64,000 nucleotides of DNA from Terrabacter sp. Ter38. GTDB lineage: Bacteria > Actinomycetota > Actinomycetes > Actinomycetales > Dermatophilaceae. Where the stretch lies: positions 248,001 to 312,000 of the forward strand of contig NZ_JALJRZ010000002.1 of NCBI RefSeq assembly GCF_024519435.1, given 5' to 3'. The notes beneath the pieces are model-generated. The model saw only the letters and a program-made list of their open reading frames with translations, did not search any database and had not been told where the DNA came from. Positions 11,133-21,774 of this stretch are shown here, piece by piece (within the stretch, counting starts at the first letter, position 1; each line of letters opens with the position of its first letter). The position numbers were made by a program, and so were the translations under genes.

Positions 11133-12449
11133 TCAGGCTGTGGGGCTGGCGTCGCCGCTGCCGAGCAGGCGGGCTCCGACGCCGACCCCCGCCTGACCAC
11201 GGGCGACATCGAGCAGCGCGTCGACCGCGCCACGGGCACTCTCGCCGCTCCACGTCATCCGCGACACCGTGAGCCCGGCGACCATGGGGGCCGCGAACGA
11301 CGTGCCGCTCCAGGCGGCGAGCCCGTCCGGGAAGTCCTCCTTGCGGCCGACGAGCGGGGGCTCGCGGTAGGTGTAGGTCCCCTCGGGGAAGGCGTTGACG
11401 ATGTCAGTGCCCAACGCGTACACGTCGACCCAGCTGCCGTGGTTCGAGAAGCCCGCGCGGGCGCTGCCCTCCTCGTCGGCGAGCGCCCCGACCGACACGG
11501 CCCACGGAAAGGCCGCCGGCCAGAACGGGCCGCGGTCGCCGTCGTTGCCCGCGGCCGCAACGAGCACGGTCCCCTCGAGGTGACGCAACCGTCGCTCCCA
11601 GAAGACCTCGAAGGACAGCAGTGGCAGGTTGCGGCGGGTCCGCGTGCCACCCGAGAGGTTGAGGACGTCCGGGGCGTGCCGCAGGGCCCGGATCAGGCCC
11701 CTGACGACGTCGGTCTCGAAGGCCGCGCCCCCGACCGAGAGCACCGCCTCGACGCGGACCTCGGCAGCGGGCGCGTACGTCCGCACGACCCCGGCGATGA
11801 ACGTCCCGTGTCCCGTGTAGTGGCCGACGGTCGGGGGCTCGGGCGGACCCGTCACACCCTCGAGCCACGAGTGCGCCGCGACGACGTCGCGCAGGGTGCC
11901 GGTGTCGACGATGACGACGCGCCCGGTGCGTCCGTCCATGTTCTCCGGGACGACCGACTCGTCGAAGGAGTCGACGGACCGGGGCTGCGGCTCCTTGGCC
12001 ATGCACCACGTCACGGGCGTCACGTGGATCAGGTGGTCCGGGGTCGCCACCCCGACCCCGAGGGCGTCGTCGAGCTCGGCCACGACCGAGGGCACGTGCG
12101 CACGGGCGGGCAGGACGAGGGCGTGCAGGCCGACGGTCTGCTGCGGCGTCTCGTCCCCGGCCTTGTCGACCGGGTGGGCGAGGCCAAGGTGTGTCACGAC
12201 CCTCGGCACGTCCTCGTCGCGGACGAGGACGACGCCGGGCCGGTAGAGGTAGCGGGCCACGCCGTGCGCGTCGCGCTCGACCCCGAGGTGGCGTCCTGCT
12301 CGTCGGAACGCCCTGGCGATGCGGCGCACCTGGACGTCGGATCGGTCGGTGACCACCCCGTCGTCCCACGGGTCCCACCACTGGACCGCGCGCAGGACGT
12401 CTTCGCGCCCGCCCACGTCCGAGTTGCTGCCATCATCACTGGTAGTCAT
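11133..12449 (-). CDS. Subtilisin-like S8 serine peptidase of the CHAT cassette
   Basis: A 438-residue protein with a complete subtilase triad: Asp182 in VIVDTG, His214 in GHGT, Ser384 in SGTSFAAP, and oxyanion Asn302 in AAGNDG. Residues 1-170 are a charged domain of unknown fold, which could be a prodomain or sensor. No signal peptide or membrane segment is visible, so it probably works in the cytoplasm, unlike most subtilases. The ATG at 12449 has a good GGAGGTAAC ribosome binding site. It is divergent from the TPR-CHAT gene with only 39 bp between starts, so they likely share control. Substrates are unknown; proteins of the same cassette are candidates. Confidence 0.9.
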   Translation of the reverse strand: MTTSDDGSNSDVGGREDVLRAVQWWDPWDDGVVTDRSDVQVRRIARAFRRAGRHLGVERDAHGVARYLYRPGVVLVRDEDVPRVVTHLGLAHPVDKAGDETPQQTVGLHALVLPARAHVPSVVAELDDALGVGVATPDHLIHVTPVTWCMAKEPQPRSVDSFDESVVPENMDGRTGRVVIVDTGTLRDVVAAHSWLEGVTGPPEPPTVGHYTGHGTFIAGVVRTYAPAAEVRVEAVLSVGGAAFETDVVRGLIRALRHAPDVLNLSGGTRTRRNLPLLSFEVFWERRLRHLEGTVLVAAAGNDGDRGPFWPAAFPWAVSVGALADEEGSARAGFSNHGSWVDVYALGTDIVNAFPEGTYTYREPPLVGRKEDFPDGLAAWSGTSFAAPMVAGLTVSRMTWSGESARGAVDALLDVARGQAGVGVGARLLGSGDASPTA

Positions 12450-12488
12450 GAGTTACCTCCGGGGCCGGGGACATGAAACAGGTCCGAC

Positions 12489-15146
12489 ATGAACGCCAGA
12501 CATGCAGCAGACGAGGCGGCCGCCACGGCTGATACACGTCCCCCGAGCCCTGTCGCGGACGACCTGCTCCCTCTCGCAATATCCCAGCCGGACCTCGCCA
12601 CCACAACGGCTCTGGAGCTGCTGGCCGGCGCGGCCGGGCCGCACGAGCGTTCACTCGCACACCACGCGCTCGCGATCGTCGAGCGTGACCGCGGGCGCAC
12701 CGAGGCCGCCCTCGACCAGGCGAGACGGGCCGTGGCGTACGCCCGTCGCGCCGGGCCCGACCGCGAGGCGGAGGTTCGGGCGACGCTCGGCACGACACTC
12801 GTCTTCGCCGGGCGCACCGCCCAGGGGCTGCTGCAGCTGGAACGCGCGCTGCGGCTCAGCACGGGTCCCACCCGGCACCGGGTGCTCCATCTGCGCGGCT
12901 GCACCTTCTGGCTGCTGGGTCGCTACGACGAGGCGGTGCAGGACCTCACGCACGCCGTGGAGCTGAGCCGGCAGGCACACGACCGTCTCTGGGAGGGACG
13001 GGCGCTCGGGTCGCGCGGCGACGCCCGCCGAGCCCTCGGTGACGCCGACGGCTCGACGGCGGACTACGCCGCCGCCGAGGCGGTCCACCTCGAGATGGGT
13101 GCCGTCCTGGAGGCGACGCTCTCGGCACGCAACCGGGCCCTCGTCGCTCTCCAGCGCGGCGACGTCGTCGTGGCCCTGACGCTGATGGATCAGGCGGAGG
13201 AGCGCTACCGGACGGCCGGGGTCGACTCGGTCGAGCAGCTCGTCGACCATGCCGAGGCACTGCTCACAGCCCGGTTGGCCACCGAGGCGGAGGGCCTGCT
13301 GGAGGCCGCCCTGGCCCGCCCCGACCTGGCACCGGTGTGGCGGGCCGACCTGCTCCTCGCGTCGGCGCGCGCCGTGCTCCTGCAGGGCCGGTGGGGGGCC
13401 GCAGCCTCGCGTGCGCGCGAGGCCGAGCTGACCTTCCGTGCACACCGTCGCCACCGCTGGGCGGCTCGGGCGACGCTGCTGGGGCTCGAGGCGGCATATG
13501 CCGCTGAGCAGGAGGCCCGGCGGACCACCGAGGGGGTCAGCGCTCTGCCCCGCCCGTCCTTGCCCGAGCTGCTGCACCGGACACGGACGCTCGTACGGGT
13601 CCTGCGCCGACTCGACGACCCGTCCCTGCCGGAGGCCCTCCTGCTGCTGGCGCAGGTCGCCGGCGACACGGGCCACGAGCGCCTGCGGTCTCAGTCGCTC
13701 CGTGACGCCGCCGCACGGCGCAGCGACGGCGCACCCTTGCCCCGGGCCGCGGCCTGGCTCGCCCAGGCGCTCCTCGCGGAGCAGGCCGGCGACCGGCGCG
13801 CGCTCCGGCACGCCTGCCGGCGGGGGCTGGACGCCGTCGACGAGCACCGGTCGCTCATCGGCGACCTCGAGCTGCGCGCCCTCGCGAGCGGCTACGGGCT
13901 CGACCTGGTCTCGATCGCGGTCGCCGACGCGGCGGCGGCCGGTGACGCCCGGGCCGTGCTCTGGTGGACCGACCGTTGGCGCGCGACCGCCCTCACCGGG
14001 CCGTCCGTGCGCCCGCCCGACGACCCGGAGCTGGCGAGCCAGGTGTCGGCGCTGCGTGACGTGACGCGCCGCCTCACCCTCCGCGGGGAGGAGCACCACC
14101 TGGTGCGTGAACGCGCGCGCCTGGAGTCGGCGGTGCGCAGCCGCTACCGCCGGCTGCGCGCCGGAGGCACGGGCCACGTCGGCCGCGACCTCGACCGTCT
14201 CACCGACCGCCTCGGTGCGACGACGCTGCTCTACGTCGCGATCGTGCGCGGGTCACTCGTCGCGGTCACCGTGGCCGACGGACGGGCCCGCTTGCGACGG
14301 CTCGGCGATGCCGCGTCGGTCGAGCGCGAGGCGACGTACGCCCGCTTCGCCCTGCGCCGGGCCGCCTATGGGCGCGTCGTGGACGTGTCGGCTGCCGGGC
14401 AACGACTCCAGGACGTCCTGCTCGGGACACCCGACCAGGCCTGGTGCCGCCCGTCGGTGCTCATCGTCCCTGCCGCCTCGTTGCTGACCGTGCCCTTCGC
14501 GCTGATGCCGGCGCTCCGGGACGCGGCCCTCACCGTCTCACCCTCGATCGCCCTGTGGGCACGGTCGCGAGAGGACCCTCCCCCTCGGTCCCCGCGCGGC
14601 CACGTAGCCCTGGTCACCGGCCCGGGCCTCAGCTCCGAGCAGCGCGAGGTCGCAGACCTCCGCCGCCTCCACCGTGACGCCGTGGTGCTCGGCGGCGGCG
14701 GCGCGACGGTCGAGGCGACCCTCGCCGCGCTGGAGGGAGCCCGGCTGGCCCACGTCGCCGCCCACGGCGACTTCCGAGCGGATGCGCCGCTGTTCTCGTC
14801 GCTCATGCTCGCCGACGGACCCCTCATGGTCCACGACCTCGACAGGCTGCGACGACCCCCGCGCTCGGTGGTGCTGTCTGCGTGTGACTCCGGAGGAGTC
14901 CACCCGATCGGGGCCGACGAGGCGCTCGGACTCGTGTCGAGCCTGCTCGCCATGGGCACCCGGTCGGTCGTCGCGAGCGTCAACCCGGTCAACGACGCCG
15001 CCACGGTGAGGGTCATGTCGACCGTCCACGCGACCGTGGCTGCGGGCGGATCGCTCGCCGACGGCCTGCGTGACGCACGCGCTGCCGGTGCGCAGGACCC
15101 GCTCCTCGCGGCCACGGCCGCATCGTTCACCGTGTGGGGTGGCTGA
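12489..15146 (+). CDS. TPR-CHAT caspase-like cysteine protease
   Basis: An 885-residue protein. Residues about 50-560 are Ala/Leu/Arg-rich helical repeats of TPR type (for example 96-160, 165-205, 215-275). Residues about 575-885 form a CHAT domain of the caspase-like clan CD fold, with the catalytic pair His759 (HVAAHGDF) and Cys799 (VVLSACDSGG) both present, so it should be active. CHAT proteases with TPRs act in bacterial conflict systems; in type III-E CRISPR the TPR-CHAT protein Csx29 cleaves Csx30, a protein that restrains a sigma factor. No CRISPR genes are seen here, but a sigma factor gene lies just beyond the next gene. It ends 17 bp before the convergent small-protein gene. Confidence 0.88.
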   Translation: MNARHAADEAAATADTRPPSPVADDLLPLAISQPDLATTTALELLAGAAGPHERSLAHHALAIVERDRGRTEAALDQARRAVAYARRAGPDREAEVRATLGTTLVFAGRTAQGLLQLERALRLSTGPTRHRVLHLRGCTFWLLGRYDEAVQDLTHAVELSRQAHDRLWEGRALGSRGDARRALGDADGSTADYAAAEAVHLEMGAVLEATLSARNRALVALQRGDVVVALTLMDQAEERYRTAGVDSVEQLVDHAEALLTARLATEAEGLLEAALARPDLAPVWRADLLLASARAVLLQGRWGAAASRAREAELTFRAHRRHRWAARATLLGLEAAYAAEQEARRTTEGVSALPRPSLPELLHRTRTLVRVLRRLDDPSLPEALLLLAQVAGDTGHERLRSQSLRDAAARRSDGAPLPRAAAWLAQALLAEQAGDRRALRHACRRGLDAVDEHRSLIGDLELRALASGYGLDLVSIAVADAAAAGDARAVLWWTDRWRATALTGPSVRPPDDPELASQVSALRDVTRRLTLRGEEHHLVRERARLESAVRSRYRRLRAGGTGHVGRDLDRLTDRLGATTLLYVAIVRGSLVAVTVADGRARLRRLGDAASVEREATYARFALRRAAYGRVVDVSAAGQRLQDVLLGTPDQAWCRPSVLIVPAASLLTVPFALMPALRDAALTVSPSIALWARSREDPPPRSPRGHVALVTGPGLSSEQREVADLRRLHRDAVVLGGGGATVEATLAALEGARLAHVAAHGDFRADAPLFSSLMLADGPLMVHDLDRLRRPPRSVVLSACDSGGVHPIGADEALGLVSSLLAMGTRSVVASVNPVNDAATVRVMSTVHATVAAGGSLADGLRDARAAGAQDPLLAATAASFTVWGG

Positions 15147-15163
15147 GGGCGTGTGCCGTCCGG

Positions 15164-15649
15164 TCAGCGGGCGTCGAACCACGGCGTCGACATGACCCGG
15201 GCGCCGTCGTGCTCCAGCACGATGCGAGCCAAGCCGAGCGGCACCCGCTCGAAGGTGAACTGGCCGTCGTCGAGGTCGAGGCGGGACAGCGACGCGGACG
15301 TCTCGAGCAGCACCTGGGAGCCGGCGGCATACGGCCGATCCTCCCGCATGACGACGCCGACGACGCTCGCGAAGTCACCACGACGACTCATCTCCAGCTC
15401 GATGGACACGCCCTCGTGCTCGAAGACGATGAGATGGGAGGCCGTGCCCGACCCGTTGGCGTCGCGCACCGCCGCCTCGTCCAGCGCTCCGGCCACCAGG
15501 CGCATGAGCGCCGTGTCGACGTGGCGCAGCTCGAACGCGGCCCGACCGAGGTCGACGACCTCGTCGGGCACGGGGTCGACGACGGTCGCGATGCGTGCCA
15601 GACGCTCGAGGAGCGCGAGGTCGTCCGGGTGGAGCTCCTGGTCAGACAT
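15164..15649 (-). CDS. Unknown protein coupled to the ECF sigma factor (cassette regulator)
   Basis: A 161-residue protein whose ATG overlaps the sigma factor stop (ATGA), so its synthesis is tied to the sigma factor. Residues 6-55 are helical, with the pattern LLERLARIATVVDPVPDEVV followed by LGRAAFELRHVDTALM. Residues about 70-161 look like a beta-rich domain (HLIVFEHEGVSIELEM, ending STPWFDAR). I recall similar proteins beside sigma factors and CHAT or S8 genes in actinobacteria, but know of no function. It has no membrane segment and no zinc-binding anti-sigma motif. A role as a soluble anti-sigma factor or as the proteolytic substrate of the cassette is a reasonable guess only. Confidence 0.75.
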   Translation of the reverse strand: MSDQELHPDDLALLERLARIATVVDPVPDEVVDLGRAAFELRHVDTALMRLVAGALDEAAVRDANGSGTASHLIVFEHEGVSIELEMSRRGDFASVVGVVMREDRPYAAGSQVLLETSASLSRLDLDDGQFTFERVPLGLARIVLEHDGARVMSTPWFDAR

Positions 15650-16233
15650 CAGGCCCTCCCCCTCGGGTCGAAGGTGTAGCCGGAAGCACCGATGAGGTCG
15701 CGGAGCTTGTCGAGACAGCGCATCCGGGTCGGCCCGATCGAGCCGACCGACATCCCGAGCGCCTCGGAGATGGCGCGGTAGTGGGGGCGATCGCTCGCCA
15801 TGAGCGCCCGGAGGAGCACCTGGCAGCGGTCCGGCAGATGGCGGAAGCACGTCCAGAGCTCGGCGTCGCGCTCGTCGTCGAGCAGGGCCGTGTCGAGTGC
15901 CAGCACCTGGTCGTCGACGACGCTGGTCGCGAGGTCGTCGTCGCGCACGAGGTGCTCGCGACCCCTCTTGCGCAGGACCGCGAGGCACTCGTAGCGAGCG
16001 GTCGTCGAGAGCCAGCCCGCGAGGGCCTCGGGCTGCGCGATGGAGTCGAGGTGGTTGAGGAGCTTGAGCCACGTGTTCTGCACGACGTCGGCGGCATCCT
16101 CCTGGTTGAGCCGGTGCCCTCGCGCGACGGCCCACAGCAGGGACGCGAAGCGCTCGACGATGGTGTTCCACGCGGGGGCGTCTCCGTGGGAGGCGCGGGC
16201 GACCAGCTCGGTGAGTTCACCAGGTTCGCCCAT
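15649..16233 (-). CDS. ECF-type RNA polymerase sigma factor of the CHAT cassette
   Basis: A 194-residue sigma-70 family protein. Region 2 covers about residues 25-90 (LNQEDAADVVQNTWLKLL with the preceding FASLLWAVAR). Region 4 covers about 125-180 (FRHLPDRCQVLLRALM, then the helix-turn-helix around YRAISEALGMSVGSIGPTR, where GSIGPTR is typical of this actinobacterial branch). The start at 16233 has GAGGAGGGG upstream and a possible -10 TAGACT on the minus strand at 16258-16263. Overlap with the next gene shows an operon. It probably drives the cassette's response genes; none of its target promoters could be identified. Confidence 0.9.
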   Translation of the reverse strand: MGEPGELTELVARASHGDAPAWNTIVERFASLLWAVARGHRLNQEDAADVVQNTWLKLLNHLDSIAQPEALAGWLSTTARYECLAVLRKRGREHLVRDDDLATSVVDDQVLALDTALLDDERDAELWTCFRHLPDRCQVLLRALMASDRPHYRAISEALGMSVGSIGPTRMRCLDKLRDLIGASGYTFDPRGRA

Positions 16234-16325
16234 GCGTCGCCCCTCCTCTGGGTGCTCAGTCTAGGTCTCACACCGGGCAGACGCGGCTGTCAAGCGAATT
16301 GATACCTCACGTGACCCGCGGGCAT

Positions 16326-16412: not shown

Positions 16413-16688
16413 TCACTTCGACGACGTCTGCTTCTGCGACTCGGCGTTGGTCTTGCACTTCTTGCCCATGGCGTCGAGCTGGTCGCCGGCGGCCGAGACG
16501 ACCTGGCGCTGGCCGTGCCAGTCGCTCTGGAAGCGGTCGGCGTCGGTGCCGCCCCAGTTGCCCTTGATCGTGGAGACGGCGCCGTTGACGGCCTCGACGA
16601 TGCCGTCGAGCTCGCCCTTGTAGCCGACGAGCTTGTCACCGGACGCGGACACCGCGTCGGCGTTCATACCCTTCTTGTAAACAGCCAT
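16413..16688 (-). CDS. WXG100-family (EsxA/EsxB-like) protein
   Basis: A 91-residue, all-helical protein with the WXG turn as NWGGTD near residue 44-49 flanked by two amphipathic helices, as in small type VII secretion substrates that form dimers. It lacks a clear C-terminal YxxxD/E signal; the end is KCKTNAESQKQTSSK, with one Cys (KKCK). The ribosome binding site AAGGGG lies upstream of the ATG at 16688. It is second in a two-gene unit, 54 bp after another WXG100 gene, and the pair may form a heterodimer exported by the EssC-like ATPase encoded upstream. Confidence 0.9.
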   Translation of the reverse strand: MAVYKKGMNADAVSASGDKLVGYKGELDGIVEAVNGAVSTIKGNWGGTDADRFQSDWHGQRQVVSAAGDQLDAMGKKCKTNAESQKQTSSK

Positions 16689-16742
16689 GTCAGTTCCCCT
16701 TCGGAAGTGAAGCGTGTGTAGGTCGTGGTGAGATGAGGTGGA

Positions 16743-17018
16743 TCAGTACTGCGACGAGGTGCTGCGCTGCTGCTGGACCTCGTGGTCGATCGTCGACTTC
16801 ATCTCGGTGAGCAGCTTCTGGGCCTTCTGGAGCTCGGGACGGTGCGTGCCGGTCCACTCCTGCTCGAACTGCTTGGAGTCGTCACCCTGCCAGTTCTGCT
16901 TCAGGGACTCGACCTCCTGGTCGACCTTCGTGATGAGCTTCTGGATGGCCTCCGCCTGCTGCTGCAGGACGTTGCCCTGAGCGTTGACCTCATCGTCGTT
17001 CATTCCGAGCCAAGCCAT
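16743..17018 (-). CDS. WXG100-family (EsxA/EsxB-like) protein
   Basis: A 91-residue WXG100 protein, with the turn NWQGDD near residues 42-47 between two helices rich in Glu, Gln and Lys. It resembles type VII substrates or partner proteins and is the same length as its neighbour. No obvious YxxxD/E export signal is present near the end (QQQRSTSSQY). The start at 17018 has a good AAGGAG ribosome binding site. It is first of the two-gene unit and lies 355 bp from the EssC-like gene. That gap contains a long inverted repeat (17291-17363) next to EssC and a palindromic operator-like element (17194-17211) upstream of this gene. Confidence 0.9.
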   Translation of the reverse strand: MAWLGMNDDEVNAQGNVLQQQAEAIQKLITKVDQEVESLKQNWQGDDSKQFEQEWTGTHRPELQKAQKLLTEMKSTIDHEVQQQRSTSSQY

Positions 17019-17191
17019 GACCTTCTCCTTTGCCTGTGTTCCCCCGACTGATTCGGGAAGTTCTCTTCCGGACCAACCGTGCAGGCCCGCGCTGTGCCAA
17101 CTCCTCGACGTCCGCTGGGCCTGCGGGCAGTTCGTCCCGATGGGCGGCTTTCGTCGACATGCAGCAACCTATGTCAGCCCTCGGGGGGTGT

Positions 17192-17211
17192 CGATGGGGA
17201 GCACTCCCCAT
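17192..17211. promoter_or_regulatory. Operator-like palindrome upstream of the WXG100 genes
   Basis: ATGGGGAG-CA-CTCCCCAT (17194-17211) is a perfect 8-bp inverted repeat. Read with two more bases, CGATGGGGAGCACTCCCC (17192-17209) matches 17 of 18 bases at 40140-40157, upstream of the other transcription unit of this locus. It begins about 174 nt upstream of the WXG100 start. A possible -10 (TAGGTT on the minus strand) follows about 20 nt downstream, so the element would sit at or just above the -35. The regulator is unknown. Confidence 0.65.
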
Positions 17212-17290
17212 GATCCGTGACCCCGGTGGAGCACCGATGGCGTATGCCGTGTGCCCCGGCCGACTCCCCTGAGCCCCAACGCTTTCCCGC

Positions 17291-17363
17291 CGCAACACAC
17301 CGAGAAGGTCGCAACCCACCGGGATCCGATCCCGGTGCGTCGTGACCTGCTCGGTGTGTTGCG
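17291..17363 (-). terminator. Large nested inverted repeat after the EssC-like gene, probable terminator
   Basis: Outer arms CGCAACACACCGAG (17291-17304) and CTCGGTGTGTTGCG (17350-17363) pair perfectly. Six further positions extend the stem with one mismatch. Inside lies a second perfect 9-bp hairpin, CACCGGGAT-CCG-ATCCCGGTG (17317-17337). It starts 10 bp after the EssC-like stop and so probably ends the long operon, though its size is unusual for a simple terminator. Confidence 0.7.
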
Positions 17364-17373
17364 AGGGGGAGGG

Positions 17374-20300
17374 TCATGGGCGGGCCACCTGGAGCAGCTC
17401 GAACTTGCCCTTCTCGATGATGAAACCGCGGCCCGGGGGGAGCTCTGCCCGGTTGAGGGCGGGGAGGTTGGCCTTGAAGACGGAGAGCCCCTCGTTGCCG
17501 TCGGGATGCAGCGCGATGCCGGAGCGCGACGTCTTGAGCAGGGCCTGGAGCCCGAAGTTGCTGCTGAAGAAGGCGGCCTCGCCCTCGGCCACGACGAGCT
17601 GGTCGTTGTCGACGCACGCCTTGGCGAGCGTCGTCAGGGCGTTCTCGGCACCCGACGGCGCGAGGTCGTCGATGCGCTCGACGACGACGGCGATCGGCCT
17701 CGTGACGCGCCCCTCCTCGATCTCGGCGGCGAGCCGGGTCGCGAGCGCCGAGGAGGCGTCGCCGCCCACGGCGGTCTCGGCCCAGATGCCGAGGTCGAGC
17801 AGCTCCGACGTGCGACGCGGGGTCATGAGGTAGAGCGCCGAGGCGGAGCTGAACCGGAAGAGCCCGGCCGCGGTCGTCGCGACGGCGGTCGTGCGTCCCG
17901 AGCCGGACGGACCGGTGATGATGAACGTGCCTCTGGGGTCGAAGCCGATCGGCTCGAGGGTCGAGGACGCGACCCCGACGACGGGACGCCCGCCGAACTC
18001 CGACGGCAGGTCCCCGAGAGGGATGATCTCGGCGAGGCTCTCGATCGGAGGCGCCTGGCTGACACCGGCCTTGCGGGTCGCGTCGGCGAAGGCCTCGATC
18101 GCGGCGGCCTGCACGGTGACGTCGGACGAGCCGCCGAGCACCGCGACCTGCACCTCGGACCCGGCCATGAGCCCCCGCCCCGGGGGTGAGGCCATCGTCA
18201 GGACGTCCCCGGGGACGCCGAAGACGGAGTAGTCGTCGACGTTGCTCATGCGCAGGATGATCCGGCCCTGCACGGCCGCGGCGAGGTTCGTCGGAAGGCC
18301 GGTGCGCTGGTCGGACGCGATGATGAAGTGGACCCCGACCGGCCTGCCGTCGGCGGCCAGACCGGCCAGCATGTCGAGCCACGGGAAGCGGCCGCCGACC
18401 TCGTAGGCCTGTCGGAATGCCGTCATGTTGTCGATGAGGACGATGACGCGCGGCTCGTCGGGACGGCCGGCGATGCGGCGGTAGTCGGTGATCGTCGCGG
18501 CGCTGACGGCGGAGTAGCGCGAGGCGCGCTCGTCGATCGTGGCGCGCAGCGTGCGCAGGAGGCGGACGACGCGCTCGTGGTCACCGCCGGGGATGATCGA
18601 GCCGACGTGCGGCAGGGACTCGAGCATCGCGAGGCCACGGTTGCCGAAGTCGAGGCCGTAGACGTGGCAGGGTCCGCCGCGCACCGTGTAGCCGGCCGCG
18701 ATCGCCATGGAGCGCAGGAAGACGGACTTGCCGGAGCCCGACGTGCCGTAGATCGCGATGTTGCCCTCCTTGTCGGGACGGAACGCGATCTCGGGCTGGG
18801 CCTGGTTGTCGGGGTCGTCGGCGATGCCGAAGACGAGCTCGTCGTCGCGGCGCTGCGTCGGCAGGGTCGCGAGGTCGTAGACGGCCCGCATGTCGGGCAG
18901 CCACGGCTTGCGCGGCTTCGGCAGCTCGGCGACGCGGGCGGCCCGGCCGAGCGTGCTGACGAGTCGCTGGATGTCGGTGGGCCCGAGGTCGGCGGCCTCG
19001 TCGGCGCCCTCGACGCGGGGCGGCTCCCACTCGACGCCCCGGCCGAAGGTCAGCGTCTCGACCTTCATGTCGGGCGGCGGGGGGACGTCGGAGGTCCACC
19101 CTCCGGCATACCCCGTCTGGAAGGGGACGAGCCGGCCGGGGCCGGTCTTGGACACGGCGCGGCCGGGGAGGGCCGGGTCGAAGAAGGCCGCCTCCTTGGA
19201 GCCGAGCACGTCCTCGGAGTCGTTCTCGTCGGCCATCCGCAGCGCCATGCGGAGGTTAGTGTTGGCGCGGAGGTTGTCCTTGATGACGCCCGCGGGCCGC
19301 TGGGTCGCGAGGATGAGGTGCAGGCCGAGCGACCGGCCGCGCTGGGCGACGTTGACGACGCCGTCGACGAACTCGGGCACCTCCTGAACGAGCGCCGCGA
19401 ACTCGTCGACGACGAGGATGAGCGACGGCGGGGCCTCCACCTCTCCACGACGCTCGAGCTCGAGCAGGTCCTTGGCCTTGTGCCGGGCCAGGAGGTGCTC
19501 GCGGTAGTGCAGCTCGGCCGCGAGAGAGGCGAGGGCACGACGCACGAGGTGCGGCGACAGGTCGGTGACGAGCCCCACGGTGTGCGGCAGCTTGACGCAG
19601 TCCCGGAAGGCCGAGCCACCCTTGTAGTCGACGAGCAGGAAGGTGACGCGCTGCGGGGAGTGGGCCGCCGCCATGCCGAGGATCCAGGCCTGGAGCAGCT
19701 CGGACTTGCCGGCACCGGTGGTGCCGCCGACGAGGGCGTGGGGGCCGTCGGAGCGGATGTCGACGGAGAACGTGCCCTGACTCGACTGGCCGACGATGGC
19801 GCGCAGGTTGCCGGGCTTGCGCGGCAGCACGGCGGGCGCGTACGGACCGGTGAGGATCGAGCGCGACTCGCCCCACTTCTCGATGACGGCCTCCTCGGAG
19901 CTCGCGAGGTCGGTGCCCGTGAGGGTGAGGAGCGAGACGGCGCGGGGCAGGTCGCTCGCGTCGTCGACGGGGACGCCGGCGTCGACGACCGGCGCGAGCT
20001 GGCGGGCGCAGGCCATCGCCTCGTCGTAGCCGATGCGGTCGACGGCGACCGGCTGGACCTCCTCGCCGGCGTGGACGTAGCCGGCGAGCGAGCTCTGGTC
20101 GTCGCTGACGACGAGGAAGGTGTGGCAGGCCGCCGGGAGCAGCTGCTGGGTCTCGGCGACCCAGAGCACGACGACACCCTGGTGGTGACCGCGCTCGGCG
20201 ATGGCGACGAGACGGCTTCGGTCGATGGGCGCGTCGCTCTCGACGAGCACGAGGACGGTCGGGCGCTCGGCGCTGGCCTGCTCCCGCTCCTTCGCGGTGC

Positions 20301-21774
20301 CCTTGGCGTCGATGATGTCCTCGAGGGCGTCCGCGAGCGCCGAGCAGGCCGGGGCGCTGGCAGCGAGGTGGTCGGTGCCGATCGGGCTGTGCGGCGACGT
20401 CGTGTGGGGCAGCCACTTGAGGAAGTCCCAGTCGCGGGCCGAGCCGCCCGAGGCGAAGGAGCAGACGACGAGCTCGGCGGGCGAGTGCAGCGCCGCCGTC
20501 TGGAGCACGACCGAGCGTGCGGCACCGAGGGCGTTGCCGCGCTGGCCCGCGACGCCGATGGCGCCGTCGGCGAGCGGGCTGGCGACGATCGGCACGTCGT
20601 GGACGACCTCGACGCCGTGCAGCTGCTCGGAGACCTCGAGCCACGCCTCGGCCTTGGAGCGACCGACGGCCGGCATCTTGATCGCGGAGCGGGACGGCCG
20701 GGTGCCGAGCCCGAGCCGCAGCTCGGCGTAGCCGTTGCCGTCACGTCGGCGGGTCCAGAGCAGGGCGCTCCGGTCGCGCACGGCGGTCAGGCAGTCGACG
20801 CCGCTGGGGTGCTCCCCGCGACGGGTGTGGCCCTCGACCTCGAGGGAGCCGCGGATGCGCTGCGAGAGCAGGGCGAGGTCCTCCGTGAAGTCCTCCATCG
20901 CCTGCGCGAAGTCCTTCTTCTGCTGGCGGCGGGCCTCGTAGTAGGTGCCGGCCATCATGACCGGCATCATCAGCATGAAGACGATGGAGAACGGACTCTT
21001 GGTGATGGCGAAGAGCACGGCCCCCATGAGCAGCGGGACCACCATGGCGACGAGCGGCATCGGGTTGGGCTTGCCACGCTCGGGCAGGTCGGGGACCTGG
21101 AACTCCTGGCCCGAGAAGACCGGCGCCACGCGCGGCGACCGTGAGAACGCGACGGTGCCGGCGTCGCCCGAGAGCACACCGCTGCCGGGTCGGGTCACGA
21201 CACCGTCGCCCTCCAGGTGCACCTCCAGCTCGGTGTCGCCGACGCGCACGACGTCGCCGCTCTTGAGGTGGGCGCGGGTGACCTGCTGCCCCCCGGCCGT
21301 GATGCCGTTGGCCGAGCCGAGGTCGACGACCTCGACGACCTCCTGGATGACGAGCTTGGCGTGCCTGCGCGACACGGACTCGTCGGACAGCTGCACCTCG
21401 CTGCCGCGGCCGCGGCCGATGTATGCCGTCCCGCGGGCCAGCGGGAACTCGCGTCCGGCGTCGGGACCCGATCGGATGTAGGCGACAGCCGCGGGCCGGC
21501 CGCGGTCGACGAAGCCCTCACCGGCGCGGGTCGTCGAGACGCGCATGCCGGACTGCAGGCCACTCTCGGCGACGGTCGCACGCGGGTCGAGATCCCGCAT
21601 GTCCTGGTCGACGAGGGCGAGCGTCATCGGGGCGTCGACCCCGAGCACGCCCGAGCGGTTCGGGTCGGCCGCCGCGAGGTAGGCGGCGAGGTCCCCGACC
21701 GTGGTCGCGGAGTCCGTCGTCGCGACGAGGTCGGTCTCACGGTCTCCCGACCGGAGGACGAACTTCAGCTTCAC
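17374..21774 (-). CDS. FHA-FtsK/SpoIIIE ATPase, EssC-like motor of a type VII-like system
   Basis: A 1466-residue membrane ATPase. Order: beta-rich N-terminal domain (1-85, ubiquitin-like or degenerate FHA), FHA domain (about 95-185, with GRGRGSEV, SRRH at 135-138 and SANG at 154-157), two transmembrane helices (about 239-278), then three FtsK-type modules. Module 1 has Walker A GTTGAGKS (684-691) and Walker B LILVVDEF. Module 2 has GTSGSGKS (1010-1017) and VIVLIDN. Module 3 has GPSGSGRT (1288-1295), where the Lys is Arg, so it is probably inactive. FHA fusion is characteristic of Firmicutes-type EssC rather than mycobacterial EccC. The start overlaps the transglutaminase-like gene by ATGA. 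It likely exports the neighbouring WXG100 proteins; EccB, EccD, EccE and MycP genes are absent. Confidence 0.92.
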   Translation of the reverse strand: MKLKFVLRSGDRETDLVATTDSATTVGDLAAYLAAADPNRSGVLGVDAPMTLALVDQDMRDLDPRATVAESGLQSGMRVSTTRAGEGFVDRGRPAAVAYIRSGPDAGREFPLARGTAYIGRGRGSEVQLSDESVSRRHAKLVIQEVVEVVDLGSANGITAGGQQVTRAHLKSGDVVRVGDTELEVHLEGDGVVTRPGSGVLSGDAGTVAFSRSPRVAPVFSGQEFQVPDLPERGKPNPMPLVAMVVPLLMGAVLFAITKSPFSIVFMLMMPVMMAGTYYEARRQQKKDFAQAMEDFTEDLALLSQRIRGSLEVEGHTRRGEHPSGVDCLTAVRDRSALLWTRRRDGNGYAELRLGLGTRPSRSAIKMPAVGRSKAEAWLEVSEQLHGVEVVHDVPIVASPLADGAIGVAGQRGNALGAARSVVLQTAALHSPAELVVCSFASGGSARDWDFLKWLPHTTSPHSPIGTDHLAASAPACSALADALEDIIDAKGTAKEREQASAERPTVLVLVESDAPIDRSRLVAIAERGHHQGVVVLWVAETQQLLPAACHTFLVVSDDQSSLAGYVHAGEEVQPVAVDRIGYDEAMACARQLAPVVDAGVPVDDASDLPRAVSLLTLTGTDLASSEEAVIEKWGESRSILTGPYAPAVLPRKPGNLRAIVGQSSQGTFSVDIRSDGPHALVGGTTGAGKSELLQAWILGMAAAHSPQRVTFLLVDYKGGSAFRDCVKLPHTVGLVTDLSPHLVRRALASLAAELHYREHLLARHKAKDLLELERRGEVEAPPSLILVVDEFAALVQEVPEFVDGVVNVAQRGRSLGLHLILATQRPAGVIKDNLRANTNLRMALRMADENDSEDVLGSKEAAFFDPALPGRAVSKTGPGRLVPFQTGYAGGWTSDVPPPPDMKVETLTFGRGVEWEPPRVEGADEAADLGPTDIQRLVSTLGRAARVAELPKPRKPWLPDMRAVYDLATLPTQRRDDELVFGIADDPDNQAQPEIAFRPDKEGNIAIYGTSGSGKSVFLRSMAIAAGYTVRGGPCHVYGLDFGNRGLAMLESLPHVGSIIPGGDHERVVRLLRTLRATIDERASRYSAVSAATITDYRRIAGRPDEPRVIVLIDNMTAFRQAYEVGGRFPWLDMLAGLAADGRPVGVHFIIASDQRTGLPTNLAAAVQGRIILRMSNVDDYSVFGVPGDVLTMASPPGRGLMAGSEVQVAVLGGSSDVTVQAAAIEAFADATRKAGVSQAPPIESLAEIIPLGDLPSEFGGRPVVGVASSTLEPIGFDPRGTFIITGPSGSGRTTAVATTAAGLFRFSSASALYLMTPRRTSELLDLGIWAETAVGGDASSALATRLAAEIEEGRVTRPIAVVVERIDDLAPSGAENALTTLAKACVDNDQLVVAEGEAAFFSSNFGLQALLKTSRSGIALHPDGNEGLSVFKANLPALNRAELPPGRGFIIEKGKFELLQVARP

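Follow-up and report, generated by a model that had tools for sequence, protein, structure and literature searches.

Organization of the locus

The window analysed here, a 64,000-nucleotide stretch of a contig of the actinomycete Terrabacter sp. Ter38, carries a cassette of four genes, coding for a subtilisin-like (S8) serine peptidase, a caspase-like protease combining tetratricopeptide repeats (TPRs) with a CHAT domain, a small protein, and a sigma factor of the extracytoplasmic function (ECF) type. The original prediction had recognized these four genes from the sequence, and all four lie where it placed them. The cassette and its features are as follows.

11133..12449 (-): S8 (subtilisin-like) serine peptidase, 438 amino acids (aa); PF00082, E 1.5e-17
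11904-11906, 11808-11810 and 11298-11300 (-): codons of the S8 catalytic triad, D182, H214 and S384
12508..12535 (-): predicted ECF-type promoter of the S8 gene, GTATCA-N17-GTCTG, from motif search
12489..15146 (+): TPR-CHAT caspase-like protease, 885 aa; CHAT, E 9.2e-30, plus TPRs
14763-14765 and 14883-14885 (+): codons of the CHAT catalytic residues H759 and C799
15164..15649 (-): small sigma-coupled protein, 161 aa, predicted anti-sigma factor
15464..15466 (-): codon of Arg62, predicted cleavage site between R62 and D63 (V61-R62/D63), from column conservation
15649..16233 (-): ECF sigma factor, 194 aa, ECF54-like by gene context; Sigma70_r2, E 6.2e-12
16278..16305 (-): predicted ECF-type promoter of the sigma/small-protein operon, GTATCA-N17-GTCTG, from motif search

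The called starts of the divergent S8 and CHAT genes are separated by 39 bp, as initially reported, and the predicted S8 promoter sits within the first codons of the called CHAT open reading frame. The CHAT and small-protein genes converge, with 17 bp between their stops. Coupling of the sigma and small-protein genes was likewise upheld, not through the ATGA overlap originally named, but through a one-base overlap between the sigma stop and the small-protein start (TGATG). Among relatives, a sigma gene lies immediately upstream on the same strand for 139 of 150 small-protein genes, with an overlap or a gap of at most 30 bp in 130 of these 139, and the commonest spacing is the four-base overlap of the ATGA type (65 of the 139 pairs).

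Conservation of the four-gene module

Four samples of loci were read at the DNA level with profile models applied to every open frame, which makes the outcome independent of missed gene calls; sequences were collected by profile, which favours typical members. Sample A, CHAT-led and drawn from near relatives, comprised 41 CHAT genes, of which 39 were examined after exclusion of the window's own and the weakest (G039:C2). All four families are present at 32 of these loci; five of the seven incomplete ones stop at a contig end (L045, L051, L108, L111, L118), L048 lacks S8, and L052 lacks both the sigma factor and the small protein. Sample B was led by the small protein and extended to the phylum, where 38 of 396 genomes matched: with the weakest match (G250) dropped, 26 of the 40 loci examined are complete, sigma is found in 36, the sigma/small-protein pair stands alone in 8, and the small protein alone in 4. 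Sample C, consisting of the best 80 CHAT-led loci from named genomes (Streptomyces, Kribbella, Intrasporangium, Nocardioides and others), includes 72 complete loci. In sample D, again led by the small protein but at the level of the class, 80 loci were taken, strongest first among the new ones and with weaker matches excluded; 56 are complete, with sigma at 77, CHAT at 69 and S8 at 61, and 11 of the 80 hold CHAT, sigma and the small protein without S8.

The small-protein profile matches 135 of 394 Actinomycetes genomes (E<=1e-3) and 76 of 297 genomes of the order, some of the latter weakly, and the nearest named relatives of the window belong to the Intrasporangiaceae. Gene order and orientation differ among lineages, which indicates that the grouping is kept by selection and not by one frozen arrangement. 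Taken across the samples, the four genes almost certainly constitute a single functional unit; the co-occurrence across genomes on which the original prediction had staked itself, together with conservation of the CHAT catalytic residues, was found.

The tie between CHAT and the small protein extends beyond the cassette. When the 394 class genomes were scanned with the small-protein profile at the above threshold and with a CHAT-domain profile (E<=1e-30), 129 had both, 6 the small protein only, 13 CHAT only and 246 neither (Fisher p 7e-80, with shared ancestry uncorrected); once five small-protein matches weaker than E 1e-5 are set aside, the same table reads 127, 3, 15 and 249. Three of the six genomes with the small protein only are represented by weak matches (G405, G476, G635), two are incomplete (G660, 75%, and G774, 63%), and the sixth, G520, is considered below. 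Most CHAT-only matches are weak, with a strong one in G518 (E 2.8e-108). Furthermore, where the small gene lies away from any CHAT gene, 17 of 19 such genomes hold a cassette-type CHAT elsewhere (E<=1e-20). Mirror-tree correlations of 0.835-0.899 were obtained for all pairs of families and, with the species tree uncontrolled, are taken only as a sign of joint inheritance.

Transport of the module as plasmid or phage cargo was considered and rejected: in 72,556 plasmids the small protein was not found (E<=1e-3), and CHAT was found in two (E<=1e-20), one of them chromosome-sized; phage collections were outside this search. Three CHAT copies with one in-frame stop each (G571:C11, G784:C1, G501:C1) are possibly decaying.

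The two proteases

The CHAT catalytic residues were described as intact in the original prediction, and both His759 and Cys799, along with H755, are preserved in 199 of 200 distinct homologues, the remaining one having a gap. D836 is found in 198 of the 200; its column has Asp in 8rot and Ser in the Craspase chain 8d9f, and in separase an Asp there forms the arginine pocket. By sequence, the nearest PDB match of the CHAT domain is 8rot, annotated as "CHAT domain-containing protein" (E 5.9e-14), followed by Craspase CHAT chains at about 2e-9 (7x8a, E 2.1e-9), 7y9x (Csx29) at 1e-4 and separases at about 1e-3.

The S8 peptidase was likewise correctly credited with a complete triad and no export signal. 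Among 206 distinct homologues the triad columns contain D in 205, H in 206 and S in 199, the other seven having gaps, while no arginine column of the S8 alignment attains 75%. No hydrophobic segment was found within the first 50 residues of the window's S8 protein, and a hydrophobic N-terminus occurs in just 3 of 138 S8 proteins, indicating that they are mostly cytosolic. The evolutionary rates of CHAT and S8 are closely matched (r 0.885, 65 loci).

The small protein and its linker arginine

The small protein consists of an N-terminal "DPVP" part, probably helical, a variable linker, and a C-terminal carboxypeptidase-regulatory-like beta domain. In Pfam the sole recurrent match is CarboxypepD_reg, in the C-terminal half: of 64 family members, 35 match it at E<=0.1, the best at 1.6e-7. 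The window's own small protein has no Pfam match, and no peptidase domain was matched. A predicted membrane segment is absent from 146 of 147 small proteins.

The linker contains one nearly invariant position. At position 62, 268 of 271 distinct homologues have R, and the column entropy is 0.04 bits, whereas the surrounding linker columns, 52-60 and 63-71, range from 1.5 to 3.4 bits. In two of the three non-R cases (L049, L050) the alignment has slipped, with V-R-G found a few residues off, and the third (L343) has T. F76 lies between 8 and 19 residues beyond R62, depending on the sequence. The preceding residue (P2) is V, T, L or I in 250 of the 268 sequences, and the following one (P1') is G, S, A, D or T in 262. 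As judged from these alignments, the linker arginine is likely to be a cleavage site.

Retention of the arginine was followed through loci that have lost parts of the cassette. All 14 sequences from loci where CHAT is present and S8 missing still have it, as do all 20 from loci with neither CHAT nor S8 nearby. In genome G520 (100 contigs, 96% complete), sigma and the small protein are present and no CHAT match was obtained at E<=1e-30; in its small protein the linker is shortened and the Arg column is empty in the alignment. On the evidence of its sequence, G520 may represent a natural experiment, with n=1, in which loss of CHAT goes together with loss of the arginine.

Two loci with multiplied members were also seen, L130 and L137 having two or three small-protein genes, two CHAT genes and two S8 genes in a row.

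The sigma factor and its probable promoters

The sigma factor matches TIGR02937 with 69.3 bits (cut-off 42.9). A shared motif, consisting of GTATCA, a spacer of 16-17 nt and (C/G)TC, is found upstream of cassette genes, and among 158 motif sites for which offsets of 14-18 were allowed, 107 are at 16 and 44 at 17. In the orientation facing the gene, it precedes S8 in 100 of 206 cases, sigma in 60 of 263, the small protein in 11 of 279 and CHAT in none of 233; wrong-spacing controls yielded 5 and 17 of the 206 S8 genes, and the background for a close variant of the motif is 0.0038 per 260 nt. Altogether, 135 of 197 complete loci have the motif at S8 or sigma.

The strict form, GTATCA-N16-18-GTCTG, for which 0.01 matches are expected in the window, has exactly two matches in the entire 4.83 Mb genome, one before S8 and the other before sigma. 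Nine genomes of the genus were compared: the five with the cassette have 2, 1, 4, 4 and 3 strict matches, the four without it have none, and the reversed-motif control gave no match in any of the nine. G004, G007 and G008 together have five strict matches that lie away from the cassette, and in two of the five the motif precedes the same gene, of about 350 residues. Judging by position, spacing and distribution, the sigma factor very probably reads GTATCA promoters. Since the S8 gene has a sigma-type promoter of its own, S8 looks like a target, and the subtilase is probably an output of the sigma factor.

Behind the broad motif, the fetched loci contain 67 other genes, of which 34, mostly from Streptomyces, encode a protein of about 600 residues; the one member tested has a LuxR-type helix-turn-helix domain above the cut-off and AAA_16 below it. 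The others include one caspase-domain protein and one trypsin-like protein. Many of the LuxR/AAA genes of about 600 aa, mostly in Streptomyces (e.g. L196:11672-13462(-)), have the motif 33 nt ahead of their called start, suggesting leaderless transcripts. In L043:10909-13682, where a tandem S8 pair adjoins one cassette, the strict motif also precedes the second S8.

Comparison with known systems

A group of ECF sigma factors, ECF54, attributed to Huang 2015 and Casas-Pastor 2021 as cited in PMC8999054, is described in a sentence and a table of that article as lying, in Actinobacteria, in a gene neighbourhood with a subtilase, a CHAT protein and a "carboxypeptidase", and proteolytic control without an anti-sigma factor is proposed there. 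Beyond that sentence and table, no other treatment of the gene set was found in the open-licence PMC literature. The same genes accompany an ECF sigma gene here, so that the association itself is not new; in comparison with that account, however, the "carboxypeptidase" is here a small, sigma-coupled non-peptidase, proposed to be both anti-sigma factor and substrate, and a site and a promoter can be named. The small protein is surely the "carboxypeptidase" of the ECF54 literature. What is new is its identity, the candidate site, the promoter and the place of S8.

The second point of comparison is Craspase, of type III-E CRISPR, in which Csx30, which inhibits CASP-sigma, is cut by Csx29 (PMC10028731). 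The original prediction had proposed a CRISPR-free version of this Csx29-Csx30-sigma logic, and that part fits, the small protein tracking CHAT even when the genes lie apart. As in Craspase, the protease here is a TPR-CHAT protein with a His/Cys dyad, and the arrangement of CHAT, a third protein and sigma follows the same logic. In a comparison by sequence only, however, the small-protein profile gave nothing in the PDB with an E value under 0.23, and no chain named Csx30 was among its matches. Unlike Craspase, where according to PMC11106740 cleavage is independent of P1 identity and the sites (A/S, L/D and M/K, cut between the two residues) are not conserved, the present module has a near-invariant candidate site, and a subtilase belongs to it. 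A gRAMP (Cas7-11) was sought with PF03787, which finds nothing in the Ter38 genome and matches 4 of 14 genomes as a control, and no CRISPR-like repeats of at least 22 bases within 120 bases are present in window positions 1-40000.

Two other systems share parts of this design. In the type III CRISPR Lon system CalpL/CalpT/CalpS, cutting of an anti-sigma factor also frees an ECF sigma factor (PMC11417357, PMC11229360), but the protease there combines Lon with SAVED and is triggered by cA4, in contrast to CHAT with TPRs here. In the SAVED-CHAT cascade (PMC11229360) a CHAT protease likewise acts upstream of other proteases; that cascade is triggered by cA3, whereas the second protease of the present module looks controlled transcriptionally and not proteolytically.

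Proposed mechanism and alternatives

We propose that the cassette is an ECF54-type signalling module in which the TPR-CHAT protein serves as the constant, sensing protease. In resting cells, sigma would be kept inactive by the small protein with which it is co-translated. A signal arriving at the TPRs would activate CHAT, which would then cut the small protein after Arg62, in the linker joining the N-terminal part to the C-terminal beta domain, and the fragments would let sigma go. Free sigma would transcribe from GTATCA-N16/17-(C/G)TC promoters, activating its own operon, which would provide feedback along with fresh inhibitor, and the subtilase gene, whose product would be the output enzyme and effector; in many Streptomyces it may also activate a neighbouring gene for a LuxR-family AAA ATPase. 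That the small protein inhibits sigma seems fairly probable; we lean, with rather less assurance, towards CHAT as the enzyme that cuts it at R62, and the chain as a whole, from CHAT through the small protein and sigma to S8, with its binding and cleavage steps, has in our view about an even chance of being correct.

A number of observations weigh against this mechanism. No match to a known anti-sigma family, in Pfam or NCBIfam, was found among the 64 small-protein family members. The arginine is retained in the genomes G439 (97% complete, 240 contigs) and G323 (93% complete, 590 contigs), neither of which yielded a CHAT match at E<=1e-20, and in G323 no sigma gene lies beside the small gene; both assemblies are fragmented, so that CHAT may be absent from the assembly only. 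In 62 of the 197 complete loci, some of them cut short, the motif was not found at S8 or sigma. As noted above, Craspase is indifferent to P1, and CHAT proteases therefore need not require Arg. The looser motif GTATCA-N16/17-CTC is not specific genome-wide, with 14 sites in the Ter38 genome where the reversed control gave 5; of the 14, only 6 are 15-350 nt ahead of a called gene, so that most may be due to chance, and a genome-wide regulon defined in this way was rejected. Finally, coevolution between sigma and the small protein, which in 264 pairs (Neff 156) yielded R131-D33 as the top pair with z 7.0, against a highest value of 4.3 in five random permutations, did not single out this pair in 171 four-gene loci: the top pairs changed, and the top z of 8.6 for sigma-small stood against similarly high values of 6.5-8.3 for sigma-S8 and 8.6-9.8 for sigma-CHAT, so that we draw no inference from coevolution.

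Arg62 could instead be a binding or allosteric residue, with the small protein binding sigma or CHAT and control exerted by complex formation, perhaps as a needed partner and not an inhibitor. Coupling and co-occurrence do indicate partnership and not cutting as such, and interface residues can be invariant; but the arginine is isolated in a variable linker and followed by small residues, in the manner of a protease site, and it is gone in G520, where CHAT is lost and sigma and the small protein remain. We consider this alternative unlikely.

According to another view, it is the subtilase, and not CHAT, that cuts the small protein at Arg62, either alone or as the second of two steps, while CHAT would act upstream or on another target. 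Some subtilases, those of the kexin type, cleave after Arg; the S8 protein is catalytically intact and mostly lacks an export signal, and the promoter at its gene would permit positive feedback. Nevertheless, S8 is the least constant member of the module, present at fewer sample D loci than CHAT, and the arginine persists in every sequence from loci that have CHAT and no S8, making the subtilase an improbable cutter.

The published ECF54 proposal, in which the proteolytic enzymes act on sigma itself with no anti-sigma factor, is stated in section 3.3 of PMC8999054. We rate it as similarly improbable: the "carboxypeptidase" of about 160 aa has a regulatory-like domain as its sole recurrent Pfam match, no peptidase domain being matched, and it is translationally coupled to sigma and tracks CHAT.

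In a two-protease cascade, CHAT would activate an S8 zymogen by cutting it, and S8 would then act on the control of sigma, much as in the original prediction, which had CHAT cutting either the small protein or the S8 zymogen to free sigma. The matched rates of CHAT and S8 would suit such a cascade, and SAVED-CHAT (PMC11229360) illustrates that CHAT proteases can start one. The zymogen branch was nonetheless not supported, and the cascade appears very improbable, given the lack of a sufficiently conserved S8 arginine column, the 11 loci that keep the other three genes without S8, and the sigma-type promoter that makes S8 look like a transcriptional target. Chance neighbourhood of the four genes, for which their varying order and orientation might speak, is refuted by the co-occurrence counts and has a negligible probability.

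Neighbouring genes and a second cassette

Directly upstream of sigma and on the same strand, window positions 16413-21774 contain two WXG100 genes and an FtsK/EccC-like ATPase gene with an FHA domain. Genes of the same size occupy this place in four genomes of the genus (L037, L038, L042, L043), and not in L039-L041. These ESX-like neighbours raised the question of whether S8 is a type VII mycosin, which was rejected: TIGR03921 gave 67.6 bits against a cut-off of 278.75, and cassettes of other genera have no adjoining ESX-like genes.

The Ter38 genome also contains a second, paralogous cassette (G000:C43:188249-193516, or L056:4249-9516), arranged as one co-oriented run and coding for an S8 protein of 514 aa, a sigma factor of 193, a small protein of 168 and a CHAT protein of 843. 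Its S8 protein has tandem GGYWGGV repeats ahead of the catalytic domain, at residues about 150-173. In loci related to it (L113, L117, L125) a motif faces a divergent gene, which in L117 codes for a peptidoglycan-binding protein.

Implications

The ECF54 sentence and table of PMC8999054 list this group as being under proteolytic regulation and name neither a substrate or site nor any target genes. The present analysis points to a single candidate residue, R62, to a protease pair and to two predicted promoters, and the motif allows the regulon to be read in other genomes. It is tempting, if doubtful, to go further and suppose that about one-third of the sampled Actinomycetes have a CRISPR-free caspase-like switch with a very small regulon and a cytosolic subtilase as its executioner, in cell death or defence, and that type III-E CRISPR recruited such a switch; just as speculatively, its further outputs elsewhere may be a LuxR-type AAA ATPase and, in one case, a caspase-domain protein. 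If the proposed mechanism is true, the logic of CHAT, anti-sigma and sigma seen in rare CRISPR systems would be a widespread bacterial signalling device, as broadly distributed as the small protein itself, and the output of the switch would itself be a protease.

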